From positions 273,957,014-274,021,013 of the forward strand of contig CM038215.1 of assembly GCA_021442155.1 (NCBI GenBank): a stretch of 64,000 nt of DNA, in the 5' to 3' direction. Source of the stretch: Cymbidium sinense. Lineage: Eukaryota > Streptophyta > Magnoliopsida > Asparagales > Orchidaceae. Position numbers and translations under genes: made by a program. Of this stretch, positions 5,881 through 29,350 are shown one piece after another; positions within the stretch are counted from its first letter, which is position 1, and the number at the start of each line of letters is the position of its first letter. The notes below the pieces were generated by a model. It was not told the origin of the DNA, searched no databases, and saw only the letters and a program-made list of their open reading frames with translations.

Positions 5881-7320
5881 AATAAAGATGTCATTAGGAG
5901 TAGATCTAAAGAATGACCTATTCCTAACATAGTTATGGTAGCTAAACAAAATGTAATCAAGAGAATTTTCTTTAACTATTAGAGATTTTAATACCCTAAA
6001 CCCTAACCCTTAATCATATTATAATACCATATATTATCGTATAATGTAGCATCATATATTTGATCATGTAGTGATGTGTTTCTGGATGTTATAAGATGTT
6101 TTGAAATGTTTTAGTATATTATGGCATTATGCCCTATAGTCTACATTAATATAAATCATAAAAATATTTAATAAATTAGATGAAGAAATTTGTTAAATTT
6201 GAAGTGGGAATTAGTTTGTAGTACCAAAGGTGTGCTACGCCACTTGTAGTCTAAAAAGTAAGATTTTATGTTCAAAATAAATATTATATGTTGTAACATA
6301 GTATAACATCATATATCATAATATATTGTTCTAAGATTTTAAATTATTTTAGTATTTTACAATCATGCAGACAATCCTACACTAGCATTATTTATAAAAA
6401 TATTGATTTAGACTTTAAAATATTGTAATTTGGCTAAATTCATAATAGGTAGAGCATGGCATCATAATATATTATTTTAATTTAAAATATTTAAGTGATA
6501 TGGTGAAAATATATAGTTTATTATTGCTTAGACTAATTTTATGATTTTTTATCTTAAGAAATCCCTTGTGATGTGATATGCAATATAATATAATATAAAA
6601 TGTTATAGTGTATTATAATATAGGATGCCATAACAAAATGTAGCATCATGCATTATAGCATTCTATTAGTATTATTACTTATTGTTTAGCATATTTTAGT
6701 TTGTTATAGTATGATATAGTAGAGTTTGTACTGGTATAATTCATAAAAATACTAATTTATAGGCTGAGATGATAGGATTTGGCCAAATTTAAGGTATGCC
6801 TTAAGGAACATCATTGGGGATGTGCTATGGTGTGTCATTTAATCAAAAGAATAAAATTTTGCATCTAAAATAAATGTTCATTTTCCAACCAAATTTTATA
6901 AATTTCTTGCTTAAAGTGATTTATTTTAAGGTGTAATATAAGATAATATATTATATGAAAGCATATTAAAATATAGTGTACATAATAATATAACATATGG
7001 AAGAATTTGGCCAAATTCATGGCACACACCAAGATTATGCTATTTTGTACCATTTCTAATAGAAAATAAACAATTTTACATCCAAAATGAATATTATTAA
7101 TATATTGAGAAAATTTTGTTATTTGTTAATTTTAAGTGATTCTATTGAGGTGCAATGTTAGACAATATATTATATTATAACAAATTATAATATAATATAG
7201 TGTGTTAATTCACACTATAATATGTTTAGCATGATATTATATAGTTAGTTTGAGCTTGCACCATCACAAACCATAAAATGTTGATTACAATGTTAAGATG
7301 ATGTAATTTGGACGAATACA
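5881..7320. repeat. AT-rich degenerate tandem repeat (left copy)
   Basis: No gene is seen. The segment is made of about five diverged units of roughly 230-350 bases. Each has a motif like ATAAAAATATTGATTT, then an AATTTGGCCAAATT-type palindrome (near 6424, 6772, 7005, 7303), then words such as ATTTTGCATCCAAAAT and strings of TATTATAATATA. The palindrome and the ATTTTACATCCAAAAT word are the easiest anchors. The unit edge overlaps the last part of element Y. An inverted copy lies at 53180-54645. Identity appears high (near 85-90% by eye) over the segment next to Y. Confidence 0.7.
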
Positions 7321-10040
7321 TTATTAGGCTTTTGGTTGAACTCTTAAAGGTGTGCATAAGAGCAGAAATAAGATTTGATGAGAATTCCATGTCAAGGACA
7401 TGGAGCGATACGCTAAGGAATCACACATGCGTTGGACATGACATGTGAGGGCGAGGACAATGAATAAAAAAATCTGCTGGGGATAAGGTTTGAATTTGAT
7501 TTGATTATATGGTTTATAGAAAGAAGATACATTGGGGATAAGAATCTATAATCTACTATGGATTAAGATTGAACCGACTTTAATTTATTCTATTTTAATT
7601 GATGTGGAGGCACATCTACTTGAGATATGGGCTCGAGTCTGCTAGGGATCGGGTATATGAACCTTCCACTAGGGAAGTAGGTTTGGGCTATCTGCTAGTG
7701 ATTTGGATTTGAGTTTGATTTCTTAGATTTGTTTGGGGATGTATCCATTGGGGATAAGAGTTTAGTTGGATTTCTTTGATTTAGACTCTACTAGGGGAGT
7801 TAGTTTAATTTGGCTCCATTGGGGAGCTTGGTTTTGAATTTGATTTGTTGGCTTGACTTGTTTATATATGATTTGGGGATCCACTAGGGAGAAGGGTGTA
7901 ATTTAAATCCACTGGAAAAAAATTAGATTGAGTTTAATTTTGTCTGAGTTAATGTATGGACCCATGTGTGCGATGGATAAGAAGGGAAATGCCTTGACCT
8001 ACCTTAGGTTTATAAATCTAAATGGATAGTCTACCAATTATGGTGTAGAGCTAGCCAACCTAAGGGGTTGCCTTTTGGTGAGCAATGGTTATGCTAGTAA
8101 GAAGGCATAGCAGACTTACATCATCCAAAGTGAGGAACAACTATTGGGGTGACCTATTAGATGCACAACAAATCAAACATGACCTAGGGCGACTACTGAG
8201 TGAATGCCGCTGGGGATTTATGTCAACTCAAAAATAGTCAGGATTAATTTTATCTTAATTTCATGTGATTTGATAATGTTTGTTTAGTTTAGTTTAATTT
8301 TGTATTGAGGGAATATCCATTGCGGATGTGAGCTCAATCAAACTTGATAGATTTAATTTATGGACCATGTCGGTGTGCGATGGACCCACTAAGAAAGGGC
8401 TATATCGGACGTGTCCTATCTCAGATTTACAAATCCAAAAGGATAGCCTACTAGTCGTGTGGCAAAGTTAGCCAACCTAAGGGGTTGCCTTTCGGTCTAC
8501 AACGGTTGTGCTAAGAAGAAGGCGTAGCAGACTTACATCTTCTAAAGTAGGGAATAACTATTGTGGTGACCTATTGGTAGCATAATAAATAAAACCCTAC
8601 TTAGGCGATACTATAGAGTGAATTTCACTAGGGACTTATATCAACTCAAGAGTAATTAGATGATTCCTATAGGGAGTTTTGCTGACACTACCCTAAAGAT
8701 AGGATGCCTGCTTGGGAAAAGGTACTGCTACGGGTTTCCTCTTAATCCACAACTGAATATATATTTTGTTTATATGTTTGCATAGACACTATAGGTGTGT
8801 GAGGGACCACACTAAAAAGGGGTATGTCAACCTTGACCTATCTCAGATTTACTGGACCAAGGGAGAATCTGCCCATCCATAGGATGAATTCTCCAACCAT
8901 AGGGGTGATTACAAGGAAAGGGCAATTGTATAATCTGATAGTAACCCGGGTAGTGTCTAAATGGGTTCACAAATGATGTGATCCGAATATACTGCCCACA
9001 AAAGAGGTGCTACTAGGGGCATTATCCTAAGCCCAGGAAAAGAAACCTATAGGTGTACGGTGGCCAACTCAAGGAGAAAGCATAGCAGATTTACATCTGC
9101 CATGAGTGTTGTATCCTATGGTGCGAGAACCGGCCAACATAAGGTGTATCCGTCAGCATGAGTGGTGTATTCATTAGCATAGTGAGAACCAACCAACCTA
9201 AGGTGCCTATCAGTGTGCAATCATCAATCTGGAAAGAAAGTGTGTAGGCTTACAACTTTCCAAGTGGAACTGAACATCGGGATAGTCTGTCATCGGCGGG
9301 AAAGATGCTATCTGACCTAGAATGATTACTAAGAGAGGAGCTCTGAGGAAGGACTGGAACCAGACTTGAAGTAGTCAAGAGGGAAGGAATCAATAGGTGA
9401 CTTATCCTAACCCTTAAATATACTTTACCCAGTCAGTGCATGAAGGCTAATCCAAGTAGAATGTGTAGCAGACTCACATCCTCTTAAATGAACCCGACAT
9501 GAGGTAATTTACCAGCCACGAAGAAAGGCATACCAAACTAATAAGACACTAATCAATGTGCAGTGTCCAAGTAAGGAAGGAAAGCATAAAATATTTACAT
9601 CCTCCAAAGCAAGAAGAACACACACTAGCAGGGTAGCACGTCAGGCCAACTTACAGCAGCTACTCAGTGAGTGTCATTGGGGGTGTTGTCTCTACTTAAA
9701 GTAGCTCGAGATAAAAGATATGTGTTTATTTTATATGTTTGTGTGTAGTTTATGTTTGTGTTGTGTTGATGAAGGATGGGATGCCACTCGAGTTCATTAC
9801 ACCGACCATAAACTCATTGTGGCGGATTCACAAAAAAAAATACTTTCAACATGGAAGAGATTGAATTTGAAATGGAATTTCCATTGATGATAATTATTTT
9901 CAAATATAATTTATAATATTTCTTTAAGTATAGCCTGTTGATTGGAAGCATTGGGTGCTCTCCCTTATGATTAATAAGCTGATAAGAACCTCCTTGGTAG
10001 GCCTTCTCTATGAAAAAAGGATCTTCCTAAGGGGGGGTTC
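7320..10040 (-). repeat. Y (left) 3' noncoding region with ~416-bp tandem units and PBS-like words
   Basis: There is no coding potential. Two nearly parallel units begin near 8050 and 8466, both containing TAGCCAACCTAAGGGGTTGC, with more diverged units following. From 7470 to about 8670 the + strand carries roughly 15 scattered copies of a short word of the form YCCRYTRGGGA, for example CCGCTGGGGAT at 8207-8217 and CTGCTGGGGAT at 7474-7484. In the sense strand of Y these read ATCCCCAGCGG. A small inverted repeat, CCATGTC/GACATGG, lies at about 7388-7404. Tandemly repeated, fast-changing 3' regions are known for Tat-type elements; the short word is discussed in the findings. Confidence 0.7.
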
Positions 10041-11310
10041 AAACTTGCCTCCCATCTTACGACGGGCAGTAATCAATCTTCGTAGAACTAAAATAAGCTT
10101 TCCTTATTGAAAAGCTTTAGGATGGACCAACTTGTTGTGAGCTTGAATCAATTTAGCTTCGTACAACTCGAGGTTTTGGCATGCCTACAGGTGTCTTTCC
10201 TACAATCCTTCGATCTCTTCTAACTGCACCTTGGCATTCTTCTCTATTATGATCTTGCTACCCACAGCTATCCTTAGTGATGGGAGTTCAACTTCAAATG
10301 GTAGAATGGATTCAGACCCATACACTAAGAAAAGTAGGAGTTGGAGTTCTATATGTGGTCCGGTAGGCTCATAAGGCTTCAACTAAATGTTCATACCATT
10401 ATGGCTTGTACTTGTTGAGTTTCTTCTTCCACATTTGGATGAGAGTTTTATTGAAGGCTTACTAAGCTATTTTTCTCGGGTAGTTGATGGTAGAATATCT
10501 CCAATCTATGTTGTGACTCGGGCAAAGTTGTTGATCTCATGCTCTTGAATGCGACCATTATCAAATATAATTTATCGAGGCACTCTATACCTTTATATAT
10601 GGTTCCTAAAAGTTATAGCACATCTTTGAGCTATGACCTCTTTGAGTAGAATCACCTTCACCCATTTAGAAAAATAATTAATAGAAGCTAAGATGAATCA
10701 ATGACCCTTGGAAGAAGGAGGATCAATCGGACCCATGTGGTACCTCAACACTCGAATGGTCATAAGGCCAATGTAGGATGTAGAATGTTGGGTGGTTGGT
10801 GTAGTACCACAATGTGTCTTTAACATTGGTGGCATCGCCTAGCCATATCCATGCAATCTTTGATCATCGACGGCCAGTAGTATCCTAGTCTTTTGATCTT
10901 GGCTTTCATCTTTAGAATATATTGGCTAGCTCCGCATAATCTTGAGTGTACCTCGGTCATAATCTTATGGACTTCATTCTTGTATAAATAACATAACCAC
11001 ATATGATCGAAAGACCACCAGTAAAAGAAACCATCCACAAGAGCGTAGGAAAGTGCTCTCTACTTCATTTGATGAGCTTGGGACTTCTCTTGAGGTAGTT
11101 TTCCTTTATTTAAGTAATCCATGAATGGTTGCCTCCAATCTAACTCCTCGTCCTTCTTGGCAATGGAAACCTCCCCTTCAAGAGAGTGCTTTTTGATGAG
11201 TTCAATATCAATAATTGATAAGACTTGTTTATTTTGGATCTTTATTGATATGGACTCATCCTTCGGACATGCCAACTCCTTGACAAGCTTGGCTAAAGCA
11301 TACGCTATGT
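10041..11310 (-). pseudogene. Y (left) integrase, decayed
   Basis: Integrase joins element DNA to the target. The N-terminal zinc-binding region is readable at 10820-11038 (TEVHSRLCGASQ then LGYYWPSMIKDC and ARRCHQC). The second His of the HHCC set, seen as GAHQ in relatives, is Ser here. The catalytic core follows at about 10400-10800 with the words GPIDPPSSKGHWFILA and FDNG, broken by several stops. The C-terminal part (YGSESILPFEVELPSLRIAVGS at about 10250-10330, then KMGGKFEP near 10040-10060) is also present. At least six stops or shifts exclude activity. The right-arm copy has the same His-to-Ser change. Confidence 0.85.
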
Positions 11311-11320
11311 CATTCTGTCC

Positions 11321-11851
11321 TCAAGAAACTTTATAAATGGTAACCTCTAAGATTTGGGCCAACAAATCCATGGTGTACTTGTGATAGTGATGGAGCTTCG
11401 GCTTTATAACCTTATAGGACCCAACAATTTGGTTGATAATGAGCTGAGAATCCCCGAAGATGTTGATGTTCTGGATGCTTAAAGTAATGGCTAACTCCAG
11501 ATTGACAATCAATGCTTCATATTTGGCTTTGTTGTTGGTGCCAGGATTGGACATATGATATGAGAATCTCATCACATCACGGTCCAAAGTTATGAGAACT
11601 ATTCCTACCCATCCCTTTCTTGGAATAGTAGATTGTGGTTGTTCTCCTCTTTGAGAGAATGTTACACCATCAAAGTATATCTCATAGTAGTGAATTCTAG
11701 TATCCCCTAAGTTCATGATTTGTCCATCAGGGAGATCATCACTAAGTAGAGAGTCAACAGGAAGTAGGTGTGCTGATAAGAAATCTACTAGGACTTGTCC
11801 TCTCACCGCACGGAGGGATATAAAGAAAATGTCATATTGCAAGAGGATCAT
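11321..11851 (-). pseudogene. Y (left) tether plus plant archaeal-type RNase H (aRH)
   Basis: This is the longest open frame of the window (176 codons). Residues about 14-50 are the tether between the two RNase H domains (GQVLVDFLSAHLLPVDS, then DDLPDG). Residues about 55-170 are the aRH domain: YYEIYFDGVTF with the first catalytic Asp, GIVLITLDRD, PGTNNKAKYEALI, and IFGDSQLIINQIVGSYK with the third catalytic Asp. The central catalytic Glu of the family (NNxAEYEAL) is Lys here, so the domain should be inactive even though the frame is open. aRH is diagnostic of Tat/Ogre elements. It belongs to a polyprotein; the ATG at the frame start is not a real start. Confidence 0.85.
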
Positions 11852-11869
11852 GGATCATCATGCTAACCA

Positions 11870-12400
11870 TTCAGATAGCGTCGGTCATTCCATGAGATAC
11901 TATAGTGGATTGATCCTAGAGATTAAGTTCACCTTATGAGGAAGCATGTTGTGTTGAAGCTTTGGGATGCAAAGAATAAAGCTAGGCAATGCTCTTCAAT
12001 GGGTGGATAATTAGCCAAAGCAAGGATTAGAAGATGGATAAGGTAGTAGAGTGTGTTTTCCATCTCTTCATCGTTGGTTTGGGTCGACAATGCACCGAGG
12101 GAGTCATTTAATGCAGAAGTGTAAAGTATGAGTAGCTTGCCTAGGATAGCGGCTACTAGAACTGGTAGTGTCCTCAATTAATGCTTGATGTCTTTGAAGG
12201 CATGCACACACTTGTCATCCCACTTGAACTTGGCATCCTTTTTGACAAGTGATGAGAATAACTGACATATTTTTGATAGATTGGATATAAAGTGTCTTAT
12301 GATTAACTGGGTGGCAATTGATTCCCTGATATGATGCTGAGGTTCATTTGAGGCTTTTGAATCATGGTTCTTTCTCTACTTTTGATGATCGACATGATGA
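11870..12400 (-). pseudogene. Y (left) RT end and RNase H, decayed with internal deletion
   Basis: The minus strand reads LSKICQLFSSLVKKDAKFKWDDKC, then HAFKDIKH, then an open stretch at 11929-12177 (LPVLVAAILGKLLILYTSALNDSLGAL, NTLYYL, NYPPIEEHCLALFFAS). This matches the RT thumb and retroviral-type RNase H (LYTS-LNDSLGAL is the first Asp region). The RT palm from YxDD to the thumb, present in the right copy at 47990-48240, is deleted here: RT breaks off after CAMTRIFN near 12413 and resumes about 300 bases later in the protein. I infer a private deletion in the left arm. Confidence 0.75.
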
Positions 12401-12412
12401 TGAATGAATGAG

Positions 12413-12985
12413 TTAGTTGAAGATTCGAGTCATAGCACAATGGTATGTAGCACCAGCATTTTTAAGGATGAAAAGCATGAACTTATAATAATAGATTTTG
12501 ATCAGGGTTCTAAAAGTAGTGTTTCTTTCATCTTCAAGAACCATCTTTATTTGGTTATATCTATATGAGCCATCCATGAAAGAGAATATTGCATGAGATG
12601 AGGTAATATCCACCATCAAGTCCGAGATTGGTAGTAGAAATTCATCTTTTGGGCATGCCTTATTTAAATCCCTAAAATTGATGCATATGTGAATGTGGCC
12701 ATTCTTTTTCTTAATTGGGATGATGTTGGCTAACCAGGTGAGGTATTTTTCTTTTTGGATGAAGCCAACATTGATTAGTTTCTTGACTTCAGAAATGACC
12801 TGTTGTTCTATGTCTAATTGCATGCGTCTAGGAGCTTGCATGATATGGTTACCACTAGGCTCTAGTGCTAGTTTATGGACCACTACATCAAGAGTCAATC
12901 CAGTCATCTCTTCATAACTCCATTCAAAGTGGTCCTTAAACTCAGTCAATAGCCTAACTGAGTCATTGGTTTCAATTTCATTCAA
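12413..12985 (-). pseudogene. Y (left) reverse transcriptase, N-terminal half
   Basis: Open for 190 codons. It contains the pol linker (NSVRLLTEFKDHFEWSYEEM, LDVVVHKLAL) and RT motifs: QAPRRMQLDIEQQVISEVKK, GFIQKEKYLTWLANI, IPIKKKNGHIHICINFRDLN, KACPKDEFLLP, and FSFMDGSYRYNQIKM with the first catalytic Asp region of gypsy RTs. It then becomes ragged (YYYKFMLFILKNAGATY, CAMTRIFN). The YxDD box is missing because of a deletion just downstream. The open length reflects modest decay, not function. Confidence 0.9.
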
Positions 12986-13912
12986 TAAAGAATTGATGTA
13001 TGTCGGGCATGGATCTTCTTCAATTCTAAGTTGATTTCTTTGAGCTCATCGATGGTTGACTTAATCTCTTCTTCAAACTCTAGCTGTGCATCTTTGACTT
13101 CAAAGTCATCTGGATCATCTGAAGTTTCTAAGCATAACTCCTCATACTAGTTAATGTGATTTGAAAAGAACTTATCAATTCCAAATGATTGGTGATGACT
13201 AAGTAGTAATTATCATCCCACTACACTGAATCTTAGTCTCAGTCTTGATTGAGAGCTTTTGCATTTATTATTACAAATTCTTTTGAAGTAGTCTGACTTG
13301 TGCTTTGACCAAGTAAGTTGGATTAACCCTTTCTATGCTAAATTATGAACACAAGGCAATTACTAATAAAAAGGTAATTCTATTAAATTTTTATAGGAAT
13401 CATCCTCAAGTTCTACATCAACTTCTTGACTTGAGGATGATGCTTACAGAAAGAACCTCTGAGTCTTTACACCTTTGGATGACTTCTGGGCTTCCTTAAC
13501 TACCAAACCCTCAGCTTTTTGAGAGGAAAGTGGGGTTAGAGCTAAGGTTCCCAACTAATGCCTAACTTATTCACATATAGACTTAGATACACTTATGCTT
13601 TGCTTTGGAGCTCGGTCTTCATCGCTATCTAGCTCAAGTGTCACCTCCAAGAGAATCTACTACTAAGAAGAGCTGACTGGTGTGCTAAACATATAAGACT
13701 CATCCTATGAACTAGATTCTAAGTCTATATGGATAGCGTGTACTCTGTAGGTGGGACATATCTTCTATTGGGTGGCCAATAAGGAGATTTTCACCCCTAG
13801 GGACCTGAACTAGCCTCTTCCTCTACAGTGGAGGTCGGTCATCATACATATGTTGAAGGAGTAATGAACTATGGGTGGAATCTAATGGTAGGCTCCACTT
13901 CCTCCTCCAAGT
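12986..13912 (-). pseudogene. Y (left) protease-RT linker, decayed
   Basis: Short readable pieces on the minus strand resemble the same region of X and of the right copy: KSSIDELKEI-like acidic helices near 13020-13130, and the SSSQEVDVELE motif near 13400-13440. Stops and shifts interrupt it. No known enzymatic domain lies here. In Ogre elements an intron has been described between pro and RT (established knowledge); I cannot define splice sites in this copy. Confidence 0.6.
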
Positions 13913-14303
13913 TTATTTCCACTCCATTTTATTTTCTTTTTCATTTTCTCTTTTCTTTTCTTTTTTTTCTCTTCCTTTTTCCTTTTCTTTTTCTTTTATT
14001 TCTAAACTTTTTCCAAGCTTATGAGAATAGAATTGTTGATTTTGAGGGAGGTAGTAAGCCGTATCATCATATATGCCAACCTCATGAACTATAAATGGCT
14101 TGAGATCTCCTTTGACACAATAGATGATCCCACCTCTCAAAAACTTTATACATTGATGTAGAGAGGATGGAACTATGATGTTCTCATGTATCCATGTTCT
14201 CCCAAATAAAGTGTTGAAAGATGTATCCGAGTCTATAATTTGAAACTTGGTTACGGTCTTCCAATCATCTATCTCCAAGGGCAACACTATGGAGCCTAAG
14301 GCC
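13913..14303 (-). pseudogene. Y (left) retropepsin C-terminal half, cut by the X LTR
   Basis: The minus strand reads ALGSIVLPLEID, then FQIIDSDTSFNTLFGRTWIH, VPSSLHQCIKFLRGG, GDLKPFIVHEVGIYDD and TAYYLPQN, followed by a Lys/Glu-rich tract encoded by a purine run (CTTTTC pyrimidines on the + strand, 13917-14000). This is the flap and C-terminal half of a Tat-type aspartic protease (compare LGRPWIH in X). The active-site half is missing because the X LTR begins at 14304, in the middle of the ALGSIV codons. Confidence 0.9.
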
Positions 14304-15119
14304 TGTTGACCTCACTTTTGGAGTGTGGATTCAATCTTCCCATCTTAGACTTAGAAGTCTTCTAGACACTAAGACTTCCCTAGTCATAAGATATTTTTAA
14401 CAATTAGGTAAACACTTAACCTAAGCCTAAAGACATAGAAGGGTTAACCAGAGAATTAGGTTATTTCTTAAGGATTAGGATAATCCACCTACCCTACAAC
14501 CCAAATCCAATCCATGTTCACCTTCTCAAACCAAACCTCAAGTTCAATTCAAACATCAGATTCAAATCCAAATCCAAACCCAAATTCCAAAACCAAATGG
14601 TTGAAGCCATGATCAAATTCAAATTTAAAACCCTTCTTACATATGACCTATCCATGGACTTAGCCAAATCCTAATCCAAATCAATCCAAAATTAATAGAT
14701 CTTCTCATAATCAATTTATATCTTCAATCATCTTCCTAAATATAAATCAAATCTACATTCAAATGATCAAAACTAAATCAACTAAATCAAATTAAATCAA
14801 AACCCTTCCTAAGCCATATGACCTATCCATGGACTTAGCCAAATCTTAATCCAAATCAAGTTAAACTCAATTGATTTTCTCACAAATAAATCATATTTTC
14901 AATCATCTTCACAAATTTAAATGAAATATACATTTAAATGATCAAAACTAAATCAAACTAAATCAAAATCCAAACTTAAGCCATGACCAAACTCCATGGA
15001 CTTAGCCAAATTCCTTCATTCCAAAACCCAAATTCAATTTATTTTCTCATGAATCAATCATACCTTTAATCATATTCAAAAGTATAAAAAAATCTATAAT
15101 CATCAAGCCAAACCAAAAT

Positions 15120-16210
15120 CAACCCAAGTCAAACCCAACTTAACCCTTTTGACTTGAAATGTTCAAATGAACAAAACCCATTTGAACCCAGTTAATTTGA
15201 ATTTATATATCAGTCCCAAATCCATATATAAACTCAACTAAATCAAACTCAACCCAAAATCAAACCCAACTTAATTGGTCCACTTGACCCAAAGTGGGCA
15301 ATTTGATCTATTTGAGCCAAGTTCTAATCTTACCCAAATTAGATTGAACCAAGAAAACCTACCATCATGATTGTTGATTACCCTAGGTTGATCAATTTTC
15401 ACAAATTAGGTCAAACCAAGTCAACTTGATCATTTTACCAAGTCAACCACTTAACCCATATGAAACTAAACTAGCCAAATTGCAACCTAAGCCAAATCCC
15501 TTGAAACAAATGATTCATACCAAATCAAAATCAATATTTGAATATAACTTGACCTTCAATGGAGTCAAACCAAACCCAATTGGACCTCTTGACCCATGTT
15601 GACCCAAATTGACCTAAAAGACTAAATTGGGTCAAATCAAAATATAAACCAAATTGATTGCAGTCAATGGCTCAAGTTCATTCCAAATTGATTATTGAAC
15701 TTGACCAAATCCATGATTGCACCTAATTGAACCAAATTGACCTACTTAGCCCAATTTGACCTAAAGGTTCAAGTTGACATAAATAAAAAATAAATCCAAA
15801 TTAATTGAAACCAAAACCTACAATCTTCTTTGATTGGACAACTAAACCCAAACCAACACCCAATCCAAGCCAATTTGGCCAATTTAATCAAATTGGTCAA
15901 CTTAATCCATTTGACCCAAATGAATTCAAATGAGCCAAAATCAAATCTAAGCCAAACTAATCCAAACCAATGGAACCAAAACATCCCAAATGATCATATG
16001 AACTTGACCTAACCCTTAGTTTGACCCAATTTGACCAATTGGTTAACTTGACCTAATCAATTTGACCTAAATGAGTCAAATTGAGCCAAACCTAACCAAA
16101 TCAACTCTAACTGACTTGAAATTTGGGCTAACCCACTTTTGGCTCATTTCAAATATGCCCAAATCAAATCCAATGCAAAATGATCATTCTACCCTTGGGT
16201 CAAGGGAATC
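15120..16210. promoter_or_regulatory. Dense W-box-type TTGAC(C/T) cluster in LTR U3 part
   Basis: By eye I count about 25 TTGACC/TTGACT cores on either strand in 1.1 kb; chance would give about one. They are spread through AAATTGACCtAAA-like words. TTGAC(C/T) is the core bound by WRKY transcription factors, and stress-responsive LTR promoters are known in plants. Whether this cluster works as an enhancer or is just a tandem-expanded word is open. The 3' LTR has the matching cluster at about 34720-35620 and the inverted LTR piece at 45869-46150 has part of it. Confidence 0.5.
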
Positions 16211-17790
16211 ACATGAGATAAATCACCCATGTATGTGGTAATTTTCATTCCTTTGCCACATGGTAATCTCCCAATGGTCCAGCTAGGCACCCTCACCCTC
16301 CTCATTGGAGCATTTGAAATAGATAGCCATAAGCCAAACCTGATCCCACCATCCAATCAAAATGAAGGGGGGTATACACCCCCTCATTTTGACTCAAACA
16401 CACATAAAAGTCATTCCTCAGAGCCCTAGCTACCCAAGAAGATCCACTAGAGCCATTCTCTAAGTTCCCAAGCTCATTCCTCGATCATAAAAATGCCATT
16501 CCTATCCATCCCAAAAAAGGACACTCCCATTTTTGACCTAACTTCCCCATTTCTCCATCAAACTCAAATTAACTATGCACGCACCTTTCCTAGGCCTCAT
16601 TGAGTAAGAACAAATCATCTCCCAAGCTTCCCGAGCACTAGAGGTGGGACTTCAATCAAAGTTGAGCTTGAAATCATTGGTTAGTGGCCTTCCGAGTGAA
16701 CGTTAAGGAATTGATCTAATTGCTGCTCAATAGATCTTCATCTCCGCTAGATGAAGCTTCTTCAATCATTTGAGCCCCCAGTCTTGAGCTCTGGTGAGGT
16801 ATGCTTCCAAAATAGATCCTTAGCCAAAAATGTTGGAGATTTTTGAAGAAAATTTGTATCTCATGTGATCTTGACTGTTGGATCCCCTCTGATTGATGTC
16901 ATGAAGGTGTGGGATCCTTTTGGAGTTGATCCGAGCTCGGTTAAGCTCGAATCACATGAGAAATGGTAGACGGACTCCATTCTCCCTCACTCGCATGACG
17001 TTAGATCAGACACCGTCTATTCTGCATGATTGGAACAGATAATTATGATTAGATCTACTAGATCGATTTGATTTAATCTTATTAAACTTTAGGATTAATC
17101 GTAGATGTCCGATCTTAGATCGGATGGCATATGAGAAAGTGCATCCATCACTGCCACATAGGCACTGAGTCAGATAAGTTTTATGTAGCCAATCTTGAAG
17201 CGCCATGTGGAAAGCCACATGGCATAAGATTGGCTTAATTAATCATTTTAATGGCTAAAACTTCTAAAATCATAAAAAATCATAGAAATAAAAAATCCAA
17301 ATAAATACTCATTTTAAAGGTATTTCAGAGGAGAATTAATTAAAAAGATCTTAACTAATTTTGAACAGTAATTAAAGTTTAATTAGAAAATTAATTAGCT
17401 TAATTACTTTATAATTACTTGAGCAATTAATCCTAAATTTTGTGGGTTAATTTAATGGGATGACCTCTACCTCCCATGATTTGCTTGGGATTTATTGCTC
17501 ACTTAATTAAGAAAATTGACTAATTAAACCTTACTCTTTTAAGTTAATTAATGATTAATTAATCGATGAAGAGTAATAAATTGGTTAATTAAGTTTATTA
17601 ATCATTGTTTGACGTAAGTGAACTAAAGAATAGGGTTGGGACCCCTTTCTCGAAGTTCATTTCACCCTTTTTAAAAACTGAAATTAATTAATATTTAACT
17701 AATTAATTAAATCACTTAATCAAATTGAAATCATAATCACATCTGACCTTAATAAATTAAATCATGTTGTAGATCTTTAGGTGTTTATAA

Positions 17791-17809
17791 GGGTAGAGCT
17801 CGGCTACCC
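17791..17809 (+). other. Conserved LTR hairpin GGGTAG/CTACCC
   Basis: A perfect 6-bp stem with a 7-base loop (AGCTCGG). The same stem is kept in the other LTRs at 39763-39781 (loop AGTTTAG) and 44365-44383 (loop AGCTCGG), although surrounding bases differ. It marks the start of the best-conserved 3' third of the LTR, possibly near the start or end of the R region (inference). Confidence 0.6.
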
Positions 17810-19331
17810 AATTTATTTTTTGGGTTTGTATGGTGGTAATCCAATGGCCTCTTATTCTTTTGATTAGCTTTATAAATTGATTGATGATTTATTTAGCTTT
17901 TGCATTAAGTGGCATGTTTTTTTTAGTTTCTTCTTCTTTGCTTTATGTATGGCGGGATGTGGATTAGGCTTTTAGGGAAAAATATATCTTTTACCAAATC
18001 TAACAACTCAAAATTAAAAATAAAGAACTCATAACCTCACCTAAAGCTTAGGTTTAAAATCAAGATAAAAGAATTTTCAACCTCTTAGCTGGATGAATAT
18101 TTTTTTTTGCAATATCATGCACAAATGCATCTTATTTCACTCTTGATTGGAGGGCTTCCACCTTTGCTAGAGAAACTTGGCTTGACCTTTGAGAGCCATG
18201 GTGGAAACACACCTCCTCCATTCTCATTGATTTTGGCCAATAACTTTATTTCTCATGCATTAGGCATATGAATCCTATTAGCAGTCAAAATAATTGTCCA
18301 AAATAAAAATAAGATGAAAATATGAATTGCATTAGATTTAGGTCATTTGAAGCATGTGCTTACATGATCTAGTCTCTTTAGGGAGTGAGTTTAAGGATTT
18401 AGTCTCTTTCTAAATAAATAATAGCCTAACTTATCTTGTATAAGCATAAGACTTGACTACATATATTTAAAATCATAGGAGGAGTTAGTTGGCAATCACC
18501 CTTAAGTGGTTGCAAGTCCAAGCAGTTGAGTGGTTTGTCCTCTCTTGTGGAGGCAAACCAAATACCTATTTTTGCATTAGATTTAGGTTGTGCTTTCGGC
18601 CCTCGACAAAGCTCCCTAGATTTAGGTTTTGAGATTGCTTCTCCCCTTTGTGGACCATAAGCATAATTCCTCACCTCTTAGGAATTTCCATTAATCTTGT
18701 GTTATGGAATCATAAGTCCTAAATTTCTAATGAAAAATGCAACTCAAATATATTAAATCAATTTCAAAATATAAAGCCCAACTATAGGATAGTTTGAGAT
18801 TTACTAGTTTCCTAGCATCAGGCATCTTCTACTCATCTTCCTTTTTGGCTTTGATAATAACTCCCTCTCTTTGATCAATCTCATTTGATCTTCAAAAATG
18901 AACTAATCAATTGATAGTCCTTTCCTTTTGAAATCTTTGAAGACAATGATCATTTACCTTAATCGAGAGTTTTCATATGGAATCCCATTCCTTAGGATGT
19001 AATTAACTATGGGGGCTTGCCCTTGTAGGGAACTTAACAAACCCGATTTAAAAAAAAATATTTCTTTACTTTTCCATGTAAAGTAGGGGAAGAATCTCTA
19101 CATATCTATCATCCTTAGGAGTTCTTATTGAGGTGATTAGGTCAATTAAAGGGTAGTGACTTCTATCTCCTAAGATGGTAGATTATTCCTTGATGACGTA
19201 CTCAATCGCCTGAATAAGCACATTTGCGGATCTTTGTGGCATCCCAAAAAGATGAATTTTCATATTCTTTCCTTTTTCATGCATAGATTTGAAGGCGACC
19301 ATATAGAAATTTTTCTACCAACAAATTTTTC

Positions 19332-19349
19332 AAGCAACTCCGCTGGGGA
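19332..19349 (+). other. Primer binding site, tRNA-Arg type
   Basis: Starting nine bases after the LTR end is AAGCAACTCCGCTGGGGA, matching 15 of 18 positions of the complement of a plant tRNA-Arg 3' end as I recall it (TGGCGACTCCGCTGGGGA). Two of the three mismatches are G-to-A, as expected from cytosine deamination on the other strand. A tRNA-Arg PBS is typical of Ogre elements. Confidence 0.7.
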
Positions 19350-19589
19350 TGGTTCCTCTCTCCATCTTTGGTAAATGATTGTTGTCTTTGAGTATCGATA
19401 GTGGGTTTGTACTTTGGTATGAATCCAAGACTATCTTTCTTTTTGTTGGCACTTAGCTTATTTCATTCTTAAGTTGAGTTAGCCAACATCTTTAGGTTTT
19501 AGGACCTCACTCTATGTTGGTCTTAAAACCCCCGTTGGGTTCTCTAATGGATAAAAAAAAAAGATCTAAATAAAAAAAGAAACATTTAA
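19350..19589 (+). other. X leader between PBS and hairpin array
   Basis: Noncoding leader of about 240 bases, T-rich, with no recognised motif except GACCTCACTCTATGTTGG near 19504, which echoes the LTR start word TGACCTCA. It ends in an A-run (19553-19561) shortly before the first strong hairpin. Confidence 0.5.
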
Positions 19590-21920
19590 GGACCTCCTCC
19601 TTATCATTTTTATGATAAGGAAAGGTTCATTCTAAAATAATAAAGACAAAATTAACTTTCCATAAAAACATTACTATTCGAAAAGCGCTCCTTTCAAAAA
19701 TGCACTTCATAAAACATTTTCCACAAAAATTTTATCACCCTCATTTAACAATTTTCATAATTGTTACATATAGGGATTTTCAAAAATAAAATTAACTAAA
19801 ATTTTCCAAAAGCACAAATGAACATCTTCTTTCAATTCACTTTGATGAAGATTTCATTTTTCAAAATAAAATGAACAATCATCTTTCCAAAAAGTCAAAA
19901 TCAAAATAAAAAAATAAAGTTTTCAAAAGCACACATGAACCTTTTCATTCAGTATACTTACACTTACTGAATGAAAGTTTCATTCTCAAATAAAATTAAA
20001 TTTTTCAAAAGCACCTATGAACATCTTCATTTAATATACTCGAATTTATTAAATAAATATTTTATTTCAAACTAAAAATAATATCATTTGGAAATCCTAC
20101 TTAAACATATTCTACGTATGATTAAGTTGGAATTCCCTCTATCCAAAATCAATAACCATGCACAAAATAAAAAATTTCACATTTCAAGAATAAGATTGAT
20201 CTCCATTCTACATACCCAAATTTATTGAATGGAAGTCCTCTTTTTCAAAAATTAGAACTTAAAAATCATACTTTCAAAATTCTAAACACATTTGGAACCT
20301 TCATTTAACATACTCAAATTTATTAAGTGAAGTATCAAAATCCAAAATTCAAAATTCTAAACACATTTTGGAACTTCATTTAGCACATTCAAATTTGCTA
20401 AGTGAAGTTTCCAAATTCCCAAATCAAAATTTTCAAAACACATTTTTGGAATTTCATTTAGCATAGTAAAATTTGCTAAGTGAAGTCTCCATATTCATAA
20501 CTCAAAATTTTCAAACACATTTTGGAACCTCATTTAGCATACCAAAATTTTCTAAGTGAAGTCTCCAAATCCAAAACCAAAATTTTCAGACACTTTTTGG
20601 AACTTCATTTAGCATACTCAAATTTATTAAGTGAAGTCTCAAAATTCAAAATTCAAAATTTTCAAAACACATTTGGAATTTCATTTAGCATACTCAAATT
20701 TGGTAAGTAAAGTCTCCAAATCCAAAATAAAAATACTTTAAACATATTTGGGACTTCATTTAGCATAACTGAATTTGCTAAGAGAATCTCCAAATTCAAA
20801 AAATCAAAAAATCAACAATCATATTTTAATTTTTTGTCAAACACATTTTGGAACCTCATTTAGCATACTCAAATTTGCTAAGTGAAGTCTCAAACCCAAA
20901 ATCCAAAATTTTCAAAACACATTTTGGAATTTCATTTAGCATACTCAAATTTGCTAAGTGAAGTTTCCAAATCCAAAATCCAAAAAATTTCAAAACATAT
21001 TTGGAACTTCATTTAGCATACTCAAATTTGCTAAGTGAAGTCTCCAAAGTCAAAACCAAAATTCTCAAACACCTTTGGAACTTCTTTCCTTAGCATACCA
21101 AATTTGCTAAGGAGAAGTTTCCATTTTCAAAACCAAACTAAATCAAAACTTTTGAACACATCTTGTGGAAATTCATTTAGCATACTCAAATTTTCTAAGT
21201 GAAATTTCCATTTCACAAAATCAAGTGGGACCTCATACTTAGCATCCCATATTTGCTAAAGTAAAGTATCCACTTTCAAAAAAATCAAAATAAAAATGAA
21301 ACACTTAGGATTTCCTTAGCATACCTAAATTTGCTAAGGATCCTACCTTTTCAAAAATCAAAACATTCAAAAGCAAATGAAATACTTAGAATTTTCTTAG
21401 CAAACGTAAATTTATTAAGAATCCTATTTTCAAAAAATCAAACAAAACACGCTTGAGTTCTTCACCTAGCATACCTAAATTTTGCTAAGTATGAATTCCA
21501 ACTTTCCAAAATCAAACAACAAATCACTAAAAAAAACAATCATTCTCAAAGACTTCACTTACACCTAAATTTGCTAAGTAAAATTCTAAAATCATCAAAC
21601 AAAAACAAAATCAATTTGACCCTTACTTTAACATACCCAAATTTATTAAAGGAAAGGGTCCTCAAATCAAAAATTCAAATTCAAACAAACATGAACCTAT
21701 GGAAGCATCCTTCTCAAAATATTTGAATCCATCTTTCAACATACCTAAATTTGTTGAAGTTGGATTCATATTCAAAATTCATCTTTCAATCAAATCTTCT
21801 CAAATCTATTTGAACCCCACTTAACACTTCCAAGTTGTTGGATGTGGGTTCAAATTTTCAATTCAAATTCAAAATCTACAAAGATAGAAATCGATACAAG
21901 CTCATTTCTATTGTAGATTT
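19590..21920 (+). repeat. Array of ~28 covarying hairpins in the X leader
   Basis: Tandem units of about 65-100 bases, each holding an inverted repeat around a short loop, usually TACTCAAATT or TACCTAAATT, separated by A/T-rich CAAAATCCAAAATTTTC spacers. Examples: TCATTCAGTA 19945-19954 with TACTGAATGA 19966-19975; the stem at 20367-20385 with 20396-20415; CCTTAGCA 21088-21095 with TGCTAAGG 21105-21112; GACCCTTACTTTAA 21618-21631 with 21646-21660; AAATCTACAA and ATAGAAAT (21872-21891) with ATTTCTAT and TGTAGATTT (21904-21920). Both stem arms change together between units, so pairing is kept while sequence is not. Stems reach 16-19 bp. The array lies between the PBS and gag, so it would be in the genomic RNA leader. 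There is no credible coding in it (the frame at 20522-20710 is a repeat shadow). Confidence 0.85.
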
Positions 21921-23900
21921 TCACGCGATTATAGAGACTTAGTTTTTTTTCTAGATAATCTAAAATGGCCAGTTCACAAAAGTTCATTTTCACCTTCCCT
22001 CATGGTATGGATTTGGCTTTGGGCCAAGCCAACTTTTCTCGACTAGATCATACACATCTTATCCACTTTGATAGGGGATTCGAGGGTGCGAGAATTACAT
22101 GCGAGGGCACTCCCCTCACGACAGTCAGTAGGACCACGGTGACCGGGCAAAAGCCAGTCATCCGGATTGATCTTCTGACATCTCCTCATTGAAGAGGAAA
22201 GCAGTGGTAGTCCCACAAGCTTTAGTTGTGATAGTACCAGTAGTACTAGCAATGCTAGCCTCAATTTTAGTGTGCCTCATGGTTTCTCATGCTGCCCTAG
22301 TGAGGACTTGCACTCTCTCATCTGTACCCTCCTAGGGTAAATCTCCCCTAGTCTCAGGGCTTTCCTCTCCTACTTTTGAGTATGGGTCTAGCTCTCACTC
22401 CTCCCATCCTACTAGGACACAATGTAGAAATAAGAACTGCATGATCAAGAGATATCACACCAGGATCACTAGAGAGATAAGGCAGCAACCCGTTCAGTTG
22501 TTGAGCAGTTCTCTGTTATCACTTCACCACTAGTTATAGTAAACCAATTCCATCCTCTATCTAGGTCAGACAGAGAATATGTTAGGAGGATTCACTCATC
22601 ACCTCCACTAGTGCATCATCGGTTACCGGGAGTAGAAGTCATTACTCCTCATCTATGTTATGCCAAGTAGGGAGCTTATGGCTCGAGTTGAGCTGGTTTG
22701 ATCTCAGATCCATCATCCCCCATAGTGTGGAGAAGTATATCCACTAGGAGAGGGCTCAAGAGGCCCATATAGCTCACATTACCAGTAGGGAGAGATGGAG
22801 GTTCAGTTGCCAGTTGGAAGCTTTCATGCTTATTAATTTTCTAGCTCGGTGCGCACCTACCATACTGACATCATCCTACTTACTGGGACTAGTCATCATA
22901 GGAGGACAGCTCCTATGCATAGAGAGTCAGTGGTGTCTCCACCCACACCCTCATCTCCATCGCGGTCAGTCAGCATCTCGGTTCCATCAAAGGCCATAAA
23001 GGCCATATCCGGGGACAAGCGTACCCGTTGGTGATCTTCCTATGGCCGAGGGATCCCACCCCATCTACACCACCTATTGTGGTGAGGCCAAGCTCTCACC
23101 TCGCCTTACGCCCGGTGGTATGCGGAAGGAGTGGCACCTTGAAGCATCGTGGTCATCCCTTCACCAACTCACTAGTTGATTGGACATGGAGATGGTGAGA
23201 TTTCAAAGATTGCAAATGATAGTCCAACTGCACCAGTGACAGTGGAACATCCTTGGATTATTACCCCTCTCATAGCTAATAGTAGTCAGGAGTGTCACTC
23301 ATCTAGTGAGTACAATCCACATAGGATTGACTCTCCAATGGTAGGCGAGGTCCGATGCCTCTTAGTGCACGATAGTGATAACACCGGTCATCCTAGATGA
23401 TTTGTACCTACTCAGATCGATCATTCTTTAGATGAGATAGTGGCACATTATTTCATGGAAAAGAATGAGATTTTGGGGTATGATTGGTCAGATGAAGAGA
23501 AAGTCAGCTTCAATCCCAATGAAGATGACTTGTTGGGAGACTCAGTTGGAGTCTGCATGGTAGACACTAGAGGATCTCTTCTCATGGAACAACAAGCAAT
23601 GGAAGGTGATGAGGTTGATCAAGAAGACACCACAGCATCAGCCTAACACCTCTGACATCAGTTGAGGCAGAAAAATGAGTAGATCGATAGGATGGCATAA
23701 TAGTTAGAGGACTTATTAGCAGCAGTTTCAGTGCTTCAGAAACAAGCCCCATTAGTTCATCCTACTATAGTCAACATTTGTCAGCCTTAGTCAGTGCATG
23801 TCTTAGACCCAGTCAAGACTTTACCTTACCTCCCATTGAGCAAGGTAGCACTAGCCTGTATAGGAAGGTAGTAGAAAGTACCTCCATACAAGAAAAAATA
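21921..23900 (+). pseudogene. X upstream coding region (gag N-terminal part or extra ORF), decayed
   Basis: GC content rises after the hairpin array and short open pieces appear. One at 21965-22192 starts MASSQKFIFTFPHGMD; others lie at 22814-23034, 23176-23400 and 23440-23646, the last acidic (WSDEEKVSFNPNEDD). Near 23660-23730 a coiled-coil-like stretch reads LRQKNE-stop-IDRMA-stop-stop-LEDLLAAV, where the stops TAG/TAA stand in for Gln codons. Ogre elements carry an extra ORF before gag, and this may be its relic or the gag N-terminus. I recognise no domain, so the call rests on position and coding-like texture. Confidence 0.5.
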
Positions 23901-24730
23901 TAAAATCCATGGTTAAGAAGCAAGTGAAGGAAGCATTGGCTCAAGCCCGGGGAGGATCATCGGTTCCAAAGAGTAGACCCTACCTAGACAAATTTGATGC
24001 TATTCAATATCCCAAGGGCTTTGTGCCACTTTCCTTCAAAAGCTTTGATGGCAGTGGAAACCCAAGGCAGCACATAGCACACTTCAGGGCCAGTTATTGC
24101 AACATAGGTGGCAGTGACGCTTTGATTTTCTACCTCTTCGTTAGTAGCCTAGCAGGTATTGCTTTCGATTGGTATCTTTGCCCAATAATTTTAGTAAAGA
24201 CATTTTTGAGTTAGAGCAACTCTTCATTAAGAGGTTTCTTGGAGCTCAACAAAGGGTTACCTAGGTGATCTCATTGTAGCACAATAATACACCACAGTGA
24301 GTCCCTTGTTGATTATATTCTCGATGGTCTAACTTAGTATGAAGTGAATGTATCGAATAGCATGCCATTGAGATTCTTTTAAAGAATATCCATGGCCTAG
24401 GCGCCTTCATGCTTAAGGGCTTCACTATCAAGACATTTGAGAAGCTAATCAATAAGGTGGCTAGTCTACAAGGAGAGGCCAAACAATTTCCTTTTCAAGA
24501 TCAGTTGCCTAAGCAGAAGCCATAAAAGGTCTACGAGAAGAAACCAAGAGTACTAGTAGCAGTTGATAAGGAGAAGTAGCTAGTTAGAGATCAGTCTGAG
24601 AGACCACAGCCTCAGCAGCCTCCACCTCCTTTGCCACCAACGAGGTAGCCCTACCGGCCTCCACCACAGCCTCCACAGCCAGCACTGCCACCGCCTCAGC
24701 CATACCACTAGCGTAGTAGCACTCATACCG
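23901..24730 (+). pseudogene. X gag (retrotransposon gag domain), decayed
   Basis: Gag forms the particle. Readable parts include KKQVKEALAQARGGSS, KFDAIQYPKGFVPLSFK and FDGSGNPRQHIAHFRASY, the conserved start of the plant retrotransposon gag domain. Then come IGGSDALIFYLFVSSLAG, IAFDWY, FELEQLFIKRFLGAQQRVT, EILLKNIHGLGAFMLKGFTI and KLINKVASLQGEAKQFP across frames. A Pro/Gln-rich stretch (PQPQQPPPPLPPT) follows at about 24605-24720. The 101-codon open frame (23909-24214) is the best segment. Stops and shifts interrupt the rest; several are TAG in place of CAG. Confidence 0.85.
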
Positions 24731-26113
24731 CTAGGTAGCTATTGTCCACCTACTCTTTTAGATAAGTTAAAAAAACATTATTCTTTTATGAGGGAGGTAA
24801 TGAGGATGATCTTTAAGAATCTCTTAAAGAAGCGATTTTAGCTACGTACCTAGGAGACCACAGAAAGTAGGCCAAAGTCATTTTCCAAACATTTTCCCAT
24901 ACCACCATATGCTAGGCCACATTTTGGAGGATTGCTTCACATTCAAGGACTAGCTTGAACACATTTTCAAGACTGGTGTTGTAGTTATCCCAAAGGAATA
25001 CCTTATGGAACAACCTTCCAGTTCCATTAGGGTAATCTTTGGGGATACATGTGATCCTACCAAAACCAAAGAAGGTTATGATATTTCTCTATCTAAAACC
25101 TCTAAGATGATCATCCAGAAGATCAAGAAGCTTTCTTGTAGGTGCATGAGTCAGCTCAAACCTCTAACATTAAGGAAGGTTTGCAAGTTGCAGTGCCAAT
25201 TCGAGGAAAGGGGGAGCTCAGCAGCAGCAGCATGTGTCAGCTCGGGATAACCCATTAGCGCTGCCACCGACCATGTCCTCCGCCTACGACTACATTGCAC
25301 TTCCACTGATGACTTCTTCCATTTTAGATAGCTCTACTACTTTTACTAGAACTCTTGTATCGTCAGATAAGGGCATCAAATCTCTTACCCCACTCACTTT
25401 ACTTAATTTCTACTTTGTACCTCCAAACAATTCCAAGAAATTGAAGAATAAAGCTAGTTTGAATTACATCTATGCCACTTATGATGGGTTGTCTTCTTCT
25501 ATTCCTAATGATAACTCTTCAAGTTAAAATAACTATAATAATTTTGATCTTCCTCTTTCTGATTCAGAGTTGGACTTTCCAACTCTGAATACTATGGGTT
25601 CACCTCTTGAGATAGACTTGGAATCATCCAATTATGAGGGTCCCATAGTAGAAGCTATAGTTGAGCCTGATGTATAGGTAGAACCATCCATTACCCTACC
25701 ACAAGAGATCATCGAAGTCAACCTCCATAGTGGCAAGGTTCTACCTTATAGGGTAGTACCTCAAGATAGAGAGAAACAAGTCATTGATACTGATGATCGA
25801 GAAGCCCTTCCACAGGATGCTCCACCCTTGGATATGCTTGTGGAGGACTAGCCGAAGGTGGACTACAATGTCCTTCCTCATCTAAGAAAGTTGCCATCTA
25901 AGCTAAGCATATATGATGCCCTTGGCTTATCCAAAGAGATGAGGGAATCACTAATCAAGGCTGTTCTTGATCTTGAAATATGCTTAGCTCAACTGACTGC
26001 TATAGGTGAGGAAGCACATTATACAAAAGAAGCTCAGGGGATCACCTTAACAAATGAAGACCTTCTTTTGGGGGACTTGGGAGCACAGCCGTCCCCTCTA
26101 CATCATAGTTGAC
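24731..26113 (+). pseudogene. X gag-protease linker, decayed
   Basis: Mostly readable in pieces: 25005-25250, 25234-25527, an acidic stretch near 25550-25850 (PQEIIEVNLHSGKVLP), and 25858-26112 (YNVLPHLRKLPSKLSIYDAL, GLSKEMRESLIKAV, ITLTNEDLLLGD). The last piece resembles the segment just before the protease in Tat polyproteins, which typically ends in a T-(D/N)-(E/D)-D-L word followed by the HNRPLY region; here that end is damaged. No catalytic domain is expected. Confidence 0.6.
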
Positions 26114-28910: not shown

Positions 28911-29350
28911 ACTTAGGGATGGAAATCATGATGGGAGATGTATTTTGATGGTGTTGCTTCTTTTCTCAAAGGGGAAGCACCATGATCTATTCTTCCAAAA
29001 AAGGGAAGGGTAGGAATAGTTCTTCTAACTCCAAACTACGATGTGATGAGATTATCATACTATCTTTCCAACCCCTGCACCAATAACAAAGCCGAGTATG
29101 AGGCTTTTATTGCTGGTCTGGAGTTAGCCATCATTATCAATGTCAAGAGCATCAACATCATTGGGGATTCTCAGTTGGTCATCAAGTTATTGTGGGTCCT
29201 ACCGGTACTCAAACCTAAGCTTACTACGGTATACCATGAAATTGGCCCATTCTTGAAGTCACCATCTATAAGATTCCCGTAGAGAATACGAGTAGATGCT
29301 TTGGCCAAACTTACCAAACAATTGGCATGTTTGAGTCCATTTAAATAAGG
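28911..29350 (+). pseudogene. X plant archaeal-type RNase H (aRH), decayed
   Basis: Reads WEMYFDGVASF (first catalytic Asp), GRVGIVLLTPNYDVMRLSYY, NPCTNNKAEYEAFIAGLELA with the second catalytic residue Glu retained, and INIIGDSQLVIK with the third Asp. It then degrades (VDALAKLTKQLACL). Best open part 29043-29282. The presence of aRH between RNase H and integrase places X in the Tat/Ogre group. Unlike both Y copies it keeps the AEY glutamate, useful for telling the families apart. Confidence 0.85.

Follow-up and report, generated by a model that had tools for sequence, protein, structure and literature searches.

A tandem hairpin array, probably kept as sense-RNA structure, in the leader of a Tat-type LTR retrotransposon of Cymbidium sinense

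Analysis of a 64,000-nucleotide window of the Cymbidium sinense genome (contig CM038215.1, positions 273,957,014 to 274,021,013, forward strand) identified a tandem hairpin array in element X, a decayed Tat-type long terminal repeat (LTR) element of 23.5 kb. The array lies between the primer binding site (PBS) and the first ATG. Pairing of the arms, compensated differences between units and between two element families, near-absence of G from the unpaired parts, conservation of one half of the loop and the same place in the copies read were all observed. Selection on the structure of the sense RNA is the likely reason. The reading that we moderately favour places the array in the leader of the sense RNA, where selection would have maintained it as RNA structure as long as the element was active; a role in docking or packaging is put forward tentatively.

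An anchored stem scan found 29 hairpins in 19350-21965. In the array itself (19590-21921), 27 hairpins scored at least 18, 20 at least 25 and 12 at least 30, whereas 60 dinucleotide shuffles gave 8.6, 1.6 and 0.3 on average and at most 13, 5 and 2. Among the window's other 2.3-kb tiles, those clear of the array held at most nine hairpins scoring at least 25. The initial annotation, made from the letters alone, had described about 28 hairpins between the PBS and gag. This description was borne out, and every stem sequence that it quoted is present.

A loop homologous to TACTCAAATT anchors 23 units. Two more are damaged relatives (19812, 21546), and four hairpins have other loops (19590, 19738, 20797, 21871); the tests on 23 units omit these six. 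Units of the central block follow one another every ~75-78 nt (tandem-repeat periods of 75 and 77); elsewhere in the array the distances vary more. The stems show a recurrent bulge near GTCTCC, and 25 window hairpins showed 53 non-Watson-Crick pairs among 460 aligned pairs, plus 33 gaps. A sequence-only unit profile, run on both strands of the whole window at E <= 0.01, gave 35 matches, all in 19933-21857. The array and its hairpins, all on the + strand, are as follows.

19590-21921, +: array of about 28 hairpins lying between PBS and first ATG; central period ~76 nt, very few G in linkers
19590-19628, +: hairpin 1; T-A at pair 3, C-G in family W; loop not homologous
19738-19775, +: hairpin 2; loop of other type
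19816-19859, +: hairpin 3, damaged relative
19935-19983, +: hairpin 4 (TTCATTCAGTA/TACTGAATGAA)
20017-20065, +: hairpin 5
20090-20136, +: hairpin 6
20192-20240, +: hairpin 7
20290-20341, +: hairpin 8
20365-20416, +: hairpin 9
20447-20491, +: hairpin 10
20521-20569, +: hairpin 11
20595-20644, +: hairpin 12
20671-20721, +: hairpin 13
20746-20795, +: hairpin 14
20797-20836, +: A/T-rich hairpin with non-homologous loop, doubtful member
20845-20894, +: hairpin 15
20921-20972, +: hairpin 16
21000-21048, +: hairpin 17, typical central unit; C-G at pair 9, T-A in family W
21076-21123, +: hairpin 18 (CCTTAGCA/TGCTAAGG)
21165-21211, +: hairpin 19
21223-21275, +: hairpin 20
21297-21353, +: hairpin 21
21378-21432, +: hairpin 22, weak and decayed; most swaps pair better than its own arms
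21451-21502, +: hairpin 23
21550-21587, +: hairpin 24, deletion in 5' arm
21618-21660, +: hairpin 25; C-G at pair 8, A-T in family W
21721-21771, +: hairpin 26 (TTCAACA/TGTTGAA); T.G at pair 8, A-T in family W
21808-21855, +: hairpin 27
21871-21921, +: last hairpin (AAATCTACA/TGTAGATTT), unrelated loop

Further copies of family X were collected from the 3.5 Gb genome with a 221-base query, the best 40 of 1419 first-look candidates being scored. The 40 copies read include the window's own; 30 are loci from the search and 10 are more places, and they were chosen by similarity to the array, so they are no survey of all elements. Paired arms were present in all 40. In each copy, the hairpins scoring at least 25 exceeded all 10 shuffles of that copy (8 to 24; shuffle maxima 2 to 5), including one copy (L003) that is cut off after the equivalent of ~21100. 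The array precedes the first ATG, which stands at the aligned site in 37 of the 40, and follows the PBS-proximal leader, a segment present in 32 of the 40 and cut or broken in the rest. The minimum free energy z-score of the sense strand averaged -17 over the 40 copies. Chance or base composition as the origin of the hairpins is ruled out by the shuffle comparisons in the window and in the copies. Segmental duplication may account for some of the closest copies, an effect that would dilute signals of selection and not create them. Arm swaps among copies of the same X hairpin were positive in 13 of 20 random pairs (p 0.016); as a few divergent pairs, including the truncated copy, carry this result, it was not used as evidence.

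The mean self-pairing of the units was 30.4, falling to 21.9 when 3' arms were swapped among units, and none of 20,000 permutations was as high. On each of two unit trees (IQ-TREE and FastTree), 11 independent pairs of units were compared. Eight of the 11 were positive on both trees (sign-flip p 0.02 and 0.017); the remaining three were all negative on one tree, with two negative and one zero on the other. The seven pairs separated by more than 0.33 substitutions per site on the IQ-TREE tree, or 0.42 on the FastTree tree, were all positive on both trees and the four closer pairs summed to -6 and -8, a split between distant and close pairs that was made after the result had been seen. In 60 runs of an unconstrained simulation, the self-minus-cross difference was 1.2 +/- 0.7 with a maximum of 2.6, compared with 8.5 observed. 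Compensation thus exceeded the expectation from unit phylogeny on two trees and in simulation. The proposal of the initial annotation that stems change in a compensated way holds between the older units; in the central block (20284-21158), a recent amplification, changes are mostly uncompensated.

That a single chance palindrome was simply amplified in tandem and then decayed, without any function, has next to no probability as an explanation. The central units are indeed recent and mostly uncompensated copies, and the mismatch load of X is about what the divergence between its LTRs predicts by our own arithmetic (Kimura two-parameter distance 0.121, 1513 aligned sites). The unconstrained simulation on the same tree, however, leaves self-pairing at 7.8, and there is compensation between families. 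Pure tandem decay was rejected on the arm swap, the simulation and the X/W comparison given below.

Background-corrected mutual information, in the 23 window units and in 837 units of the 40 copies, placed three true pairs at the top (8-8, 5-5 and 3-3). The fourth link was off-pair (9-8), and the little-varying pairs 1, 4 and 6 gave no signal. Across the units of the 40 copies, pair 3 was GC in 431 and AT in 251; pair 5 was TA in 601, CG in 102 and AT in 34; and pair 7 was TG in 339, TA in 246 and CG in 131. The automatic RNAalifold structure of MAFFT-aligned units contained no pairs. A search of Rfam with 17780-22500 gave four matches at E <= 1, all far below the gathering score, and a pattern search of IMG/VR gave no matches.

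A second family, W, provided a further comparison. The window holds an LTR remnant of this family at 44362-45828, 77% identical to the X LTR. A query from the end of the W LTR was used, with the best 40 of 6477 first-look candidates scored; the sample comprised 8 of 30 loci, chosen for a G-poor, hairpin-rich flank beyond the LTR, and 9 of 10 places given without loci. All eight chosen loci and three of the nine other places aligned to the X leader at 65-77%; in one copy (L076), the alignment is confined to the vicinity of the PBS and to 107 bases of the array. The 11 aligning copies carried 8 to 13 hairpins scoring at least 25, against shuffle maxima of 2 to 5, with a G content of 8-12%. Among the six non-aligning copies, one was above its shuffles (L083, 9 against 4) and another barely so (L082, 2 against 1).

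When W units were located by the 5' arm alone, self-pairing exceeded cross-family pairing in five of five hairpins, with differences (D) of 10.1, 7.6, 4.2, 4.1 and 7.9, to which no significance test was applied. Pair 3 of hairpin 1 is T-A in 34 of 37 X copies and C-G in 5 of 5 W copies. Pair 8 of the hairpin at 21618-21660 is C-G in 33 of 39 X copies and A-T in five of six from W, and pair 8 of that at 21721-21771 is T.G in 36 of 39 and A-T in six of six. Pair 9 of the central unit is C-G in 35 of 39 X copies and T-A in all 26 W units (nine copies). At several further positions that differ between X and W, one family is mismatched. An unconditioned scan of two W copies (L084 and L072) recovered the same stems, most central loops of L084 being TACACAAATT versus TACTCAAATT in X. 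An earlier X/W comparison, which demanded both apical arms and so favours self-pairing, was set aside; in it, one of the cross-pairings exceeded both selves in two hairpins and reached one self in two more.

The composition of the array differs between its paired and unpaired parts. On the sense strand, G makes up 2.6% of linkers and 2.6% of loops, compared with 15.3% of the 20-nt arms. The 3' part of the loop, AAATT, is near-invariant in the 23 units (from the last letter backwards: T in 22, T in 21, A in 21, A in 20 and A in 20).

For the variant tests, columns with fewer than 25 of 40 letters were omitted, and a variant was counted as shared when present in at least 4 of the 40 copies; for the branch tests, pairs were voted over the 40 copies and not taken from the window copy, which avoids bias. 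The voted pairs were 82.9% Watson-Crick, 6.0% G-U, 4.1% A-C and 7.1% other. Single-copy variants, mostly post-insertion, were of similar load in stems (566 in 862 columns) and linkers (464 in 809 columns). Without C>T and G>A, the shared:single ratio was 50:493 in stems versus 151:436 in linkers (odds ratio (OR) 0.29, p 2e-13), and the depletion persisted under two alignment filters (OR 0.39, p 1e-4; OR 0.40, p 0.003). In the loop, the ratio was 8:69 in the 3' half versus 33:71 in the 5' half (p 6e-4), and 5:69 versus 15:62 without C>T and G>A (p 0.03). Inherited G gains were rarer in unpaired columns (OR 0.61, p 5e-4) and not in paired columns (OR 1.02). In linkers, G gains accounted for 15 of 277 shared versus 185 of 602 single variants, a depletion that shrinks with alignment filters; since misaligned G-free linkers can fake it, we take the composition itself as the main evidence. 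The ratio of breaks to repairs was 234:53 on inherited branches versus 770:82 on private ones, repairs being relatively commoner on the former, and 52% of the carriers of shared variants versus 24% of singleton carriers were in the paired state.

Several results weigh against selection on the sense RNA or fail to support it. The absolute folding energy of the antisense strand was lower than that of the sense strand in 40 of 40 copies, although the gain over shuffles was greater on the sense strand (-16.7 versus -8.5, compared with -20.1 versus -15.5 kcal/mol per 100 nt for the antisense). At the strictest alignment filter, the depletion of shared variants in stems was not significant (OR 0.69, p 0.4). 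Without C>T and G>A, the 3' half of the loop was no more conserved than the stems (5:69 versus 50:493, p 0.66), which lowers our confidence in a selected RNA structure, and its difference from the linkers fades as alignment filters are applied. The comparison of A>G with T>C in unpaired columns gave OR 0.39 at the third filter, much like the stems (0.42), and was not significant at the strictest. Pair-keeping changes were not enriched on inherited branches (92:234, or 92 of 326, versus 288:770, or 288 of 1058; p 0.72). G-U was not favoured over A-C (inherited 71:102 versus private 261:318; shared 36:35 versus single 81:96), and no G-U asymmetry was found in the window, in 30 copies, among inherited and private changes or among shared variants. 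The window pairs did include 18 G-U versus 12 A-C, but 11 of the 23 units share one T.G at pair 7, so this excess was not taken as proof of pairing in the sense RNA. Pair-keeping enrichment and a preference for G-U would be expected from simple selection on pairing.

In template-switch correction, one arm is rewritten from the other during DNA replication or reverse transcription, which would make the arms complementary without selection on structure. As the sole explanation we consider it rather unlikely. The equal frequency of G-U and A-C intermediates is what such a DNA-level process predicts. On inherited branches, double changes from one Watson-Crick pair to another were commoner in proportion to single breaks (21:225 versus 27:729, OR 2.5, p 0.003), although some may reflect whole-unit replacement or misalignment. 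There is also a published precedent for the creation and mending of RNA hairpins by template switching (PMC8794818). The process predicts neither linkers that are G-poor on one strand, nor a conserved loop half, nor the shortage of shared variants in stems, the last of these being limited by the alignment filters. Frequent correction would erase the T.G at pair 7 and the recurrent bulge, and closely related units differ without compensation. No loop matched in inverted form, yet 224 of 863 loops were classed as 'other'. The published cases in that text are RNA genes such as rRNA; they resemble the array in their mended stems and double changes, and differ from it in that the portion available describes no tandem array or one-strand lack of G (PMC8794818).

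The initial annotation had offered RNA-structure selection and template-switch correction as two alternatives. Selection on the sense RNA is the better supported, given the nearly G-free unpaired parts, the scarcity of shared variants in stems and in the 3' half of the loop, the arrays in all X copies read and the compensated pairs in family W. As neither a G-U preference nor pair-keeping enrichment was seen, correction may help to keep the arms matched.

The Drosophila gypsy element carries an insulator in its 5' region. Palindromes acting in DNA, as sites for dimeric proteins or as an insulator of this kind, are very unlikely to account for the array. The regular spacing of the central block and the palindromic apical TTAGCA/TGCTAA would suit them, but older units differ in their basal stems while still pairing, and the lack of G is strand-asymmetric.

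If sense-RNA structure was selected, each unit would form a free-standing hairpin with a stem of 15-20 bp, free to change in sequence provided that pairing is kept, and a loop of ~10 nt presenting AAAUU on its 3' side. The A/C/U linkers would be kept almost G-free so that neighbours do not mispair. A protein might bind the AAAUU, with Gag of the element itself or an RNA-binding protein of the host as the most likely candidates, and the redundancy of two dozen sites could then turn the full-length RNA into a multivalent platform for packaging or for a switch from translation to packaging. Tandem duplication would be the route by which units are gained and lost, redundancy over two dozen units would leave selection on each single pair weak, and template switching may supply some of the double changes, as the available text reports for other RNA hairpins (PMC8794818).

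Retroviral and BARE leaders carry a few distinct hairpins and are not known to carry a tandem array. Their packaging and dimerization signals resemble the array as RNA signals in a leader, in the parts of the sources available (PMC7395439, PMC3735527). The dimeric HIV-1 leader has more than two dozen sites for the nucleocapsid protein (NC), and retroviral NC binds unpaired or weakly paired guanosines, as excerpted (PMC7395439). Such G are nearly absent from the array, in contrast to the HIV sites, which is a further point against our reading in so far as it speaks against an ordinary zinc-finger NC site; a different region of Gag or a host protein is as likely a reader of the loop. The dispersed packaging signals of RNA viruses, as described in the consulted portions of two papers (PMC6281560; PMC7612645), are likewise many variable stem-loops with one short loop recognition motif. 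The array shares such a motif across its stem-loops (AAATT, each letter in 20-22 of 23 units), whereas it is tandem, lies in the leader and is known here from sequence alone.

A translational role for the leader is improbable by our estimate: the hairpins and G-free linkers would let ribosomes bypass the 2.6 kb leader or be recruited over it, in the manner of a shunt or an unstructured enhancer. The array stops 43 nt before the conserved ATG (21965), and ATG is scarce in 20244-21860 (6 versus 16.2 expected, with a minimum of 8 in 500 shuffles) and numbers 0-8 per copy in the central block. Over the whole leader there are 21 ATGs versus 28 expected, and 4% of shuffles were as low; the rarity in repeated units may be one copied event, and G gains that make an ATG were not clearly depleted (1 of 15 shared versus 24 of 185 single).

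Motifs resembling splice sites were observed at both ends of the array. The sequence GGTAAATGAT stands at 19369-19378, just after the PBS, and is conserved in many copies of both families; a pyrimidine-rich YAG precedes the ATG (21941-21967) in many X copies. These are possible splice sites around the array. They would suggest that the array marks only unspliced genomic RNA, being spliced out for translation like an intron, which we regard as unlikely. The motif GTAAATGAT follows the PBS in 25 of the 32 X copies that have the segment, eight of the nine W copies read there have GTAAAT and five have the full motif, and in 30 of 40 X copies an ATG follows a YAG at a distance of at most 16 nt. An A/T-rich, G-poor composition fits an intron, and Ogre is reported to have a partly spliced intron, though at another place in the element (PMC6317226). 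The motifs, however, sit in stretches that are conserved anyway.

A combined version of these ideas, which we hold to be doubtful, is that a tandem, self-renewing array of about two dozen interchangeable protein-docking hairpins, present only in unspliced RNA, would select genomic RNA for packaging and be kept by duplication of good units and compensated stem drift. If true, this would be a packaging signal of modular construction, a design described for no LTR element in the open papers searched. Little is known of how plant LTR retrotransposons are packaged and translated, even though they dominate the large genomes of plants, and a leader built of two dozen interchangeable hairpins that share one loop motif would offer direct access to Gag-RNA recognition in plants. 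Each copy, as a row of paralogous hairpins, is a natural experiment on RNA stem evolution in which selection and template-switch repair can be told apart.

Tandem repeats of Tat (Ogre/Retand) elements have been reported downstream of gag-pol, in the 3' UTR or between POL and the 3' LTR, in the parts of the papers available (PMC7004042, PMC11963269, PMC6317226). They are like the array in belonging to the same lineage by domain content, in being borne by the element and in varying in length between copies; the array differs in lying upstream of the first open reading frame and not downstream of gag-pol. The words 'hairpin' and 'leader' do not occur in PMC6317226 or PMC11963269. The earlier suggestion that such an array is new for Tat/Ogre elements agrees with the open papers searched, in whose accessible text only the 3'-part repeats are known (PMC7004042, PMC11963269); none describes a 5'-leader hairpin array, and as most subscription literature lay outside the search, absence from print is not established.

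The other features of element X are listed below.

17787-19323, +: 5' LTR (aligned span, ending ..CCAACA), 86.5% identical to 39759-41301 (blastn)
19332-19350, +: PBS, decayed, presumably for tRNA-Arg; better kept form TGGCGACTCCGTTGGGGAT in copy L033
19397-19530, +: three PBS-proximal hairpins ahead of the array (19397-19435, 19444-19488, 19495-19530)
21965-21967, +: first ATG downstream of the array
28986-29279, +: RVT_3 fragment of pol (additional RNase H, aRH), E 4.6e-8
39759-41301, +: 3' LTR, pairing with the 5' LTR

The leader stretch with the three PBS-proximal hairpins is present at least in part in 28 of 29 other X copies and is 0.86-0.98 identical in these 28. Two LTRs flank an internal region, as an LTR retrotransposon of the Tat lineage requires, and the additional RNase H of that lineage is present. 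The coding part is broken up into short frames, in which the aRH and a weak RVT_1 match (E 0.13) are readable. A related element on the minus strand (element Y) has RNase H (RH) at 11932-12177, aRH at 11321-11854 and an integrase zinc finger at 10823-11059. An aRH between RH and integrase marks the Ogre and Retand clades of Tat, so this order fits the Ogre/Retand side of the lineage as set out in the portion of the source available (PMC6317226). Ogre is distinguished by a plant mobile domain in an extra open reading frame (57% of Ogre) or an intron between gag-prot and the reverse transcriptase (RT). A Pfam scan of nine open fragments of 21959-26109 gave no family above the cut-off and two weak matches (E 0.10 and 0.12) to families other than the plant mobile domain.

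The 3' region of X with its LTR (from 36885) is followed by a second copy at 41435-45828, 71.6% similar. Matches to the array and to the W LTR are separated by 24-25 kb at three places (C7:7.68/7.71 Mb, C3:87.29/87.32 Mb and C3:209.27/209.30 Mb) and by 13 kb on C275. The X+W arrangement is thus itself repeated, apparently as a composite element or a segmental duplication.

Elsewhere in the window, a large inverted duplication (4096-15434 and 45864-56557, ~80-89% identity) carries Tat-type pol on opposite strands. Tandem repeats of 175-177 bp are present at 14612-15088, 46212-46694 and 33643-35712; they stand upstream of RT in elements Y and Z, and in X a related stretch lies downstream of pol, as if the block had been inverted or moved. 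Interstitial telomere-like AAACCCT/TTTAGGG arrays (420-5851 and 54786-60700) are mixed with long A/T-rich low-complexity arrays. An open frame of 139 codons (62690-63109, - strand) had no Pfam match at E 0.01. A short GGTGGTTATGGAAG-type repeat at 718-787 would read as glycine-rich coding sequence.

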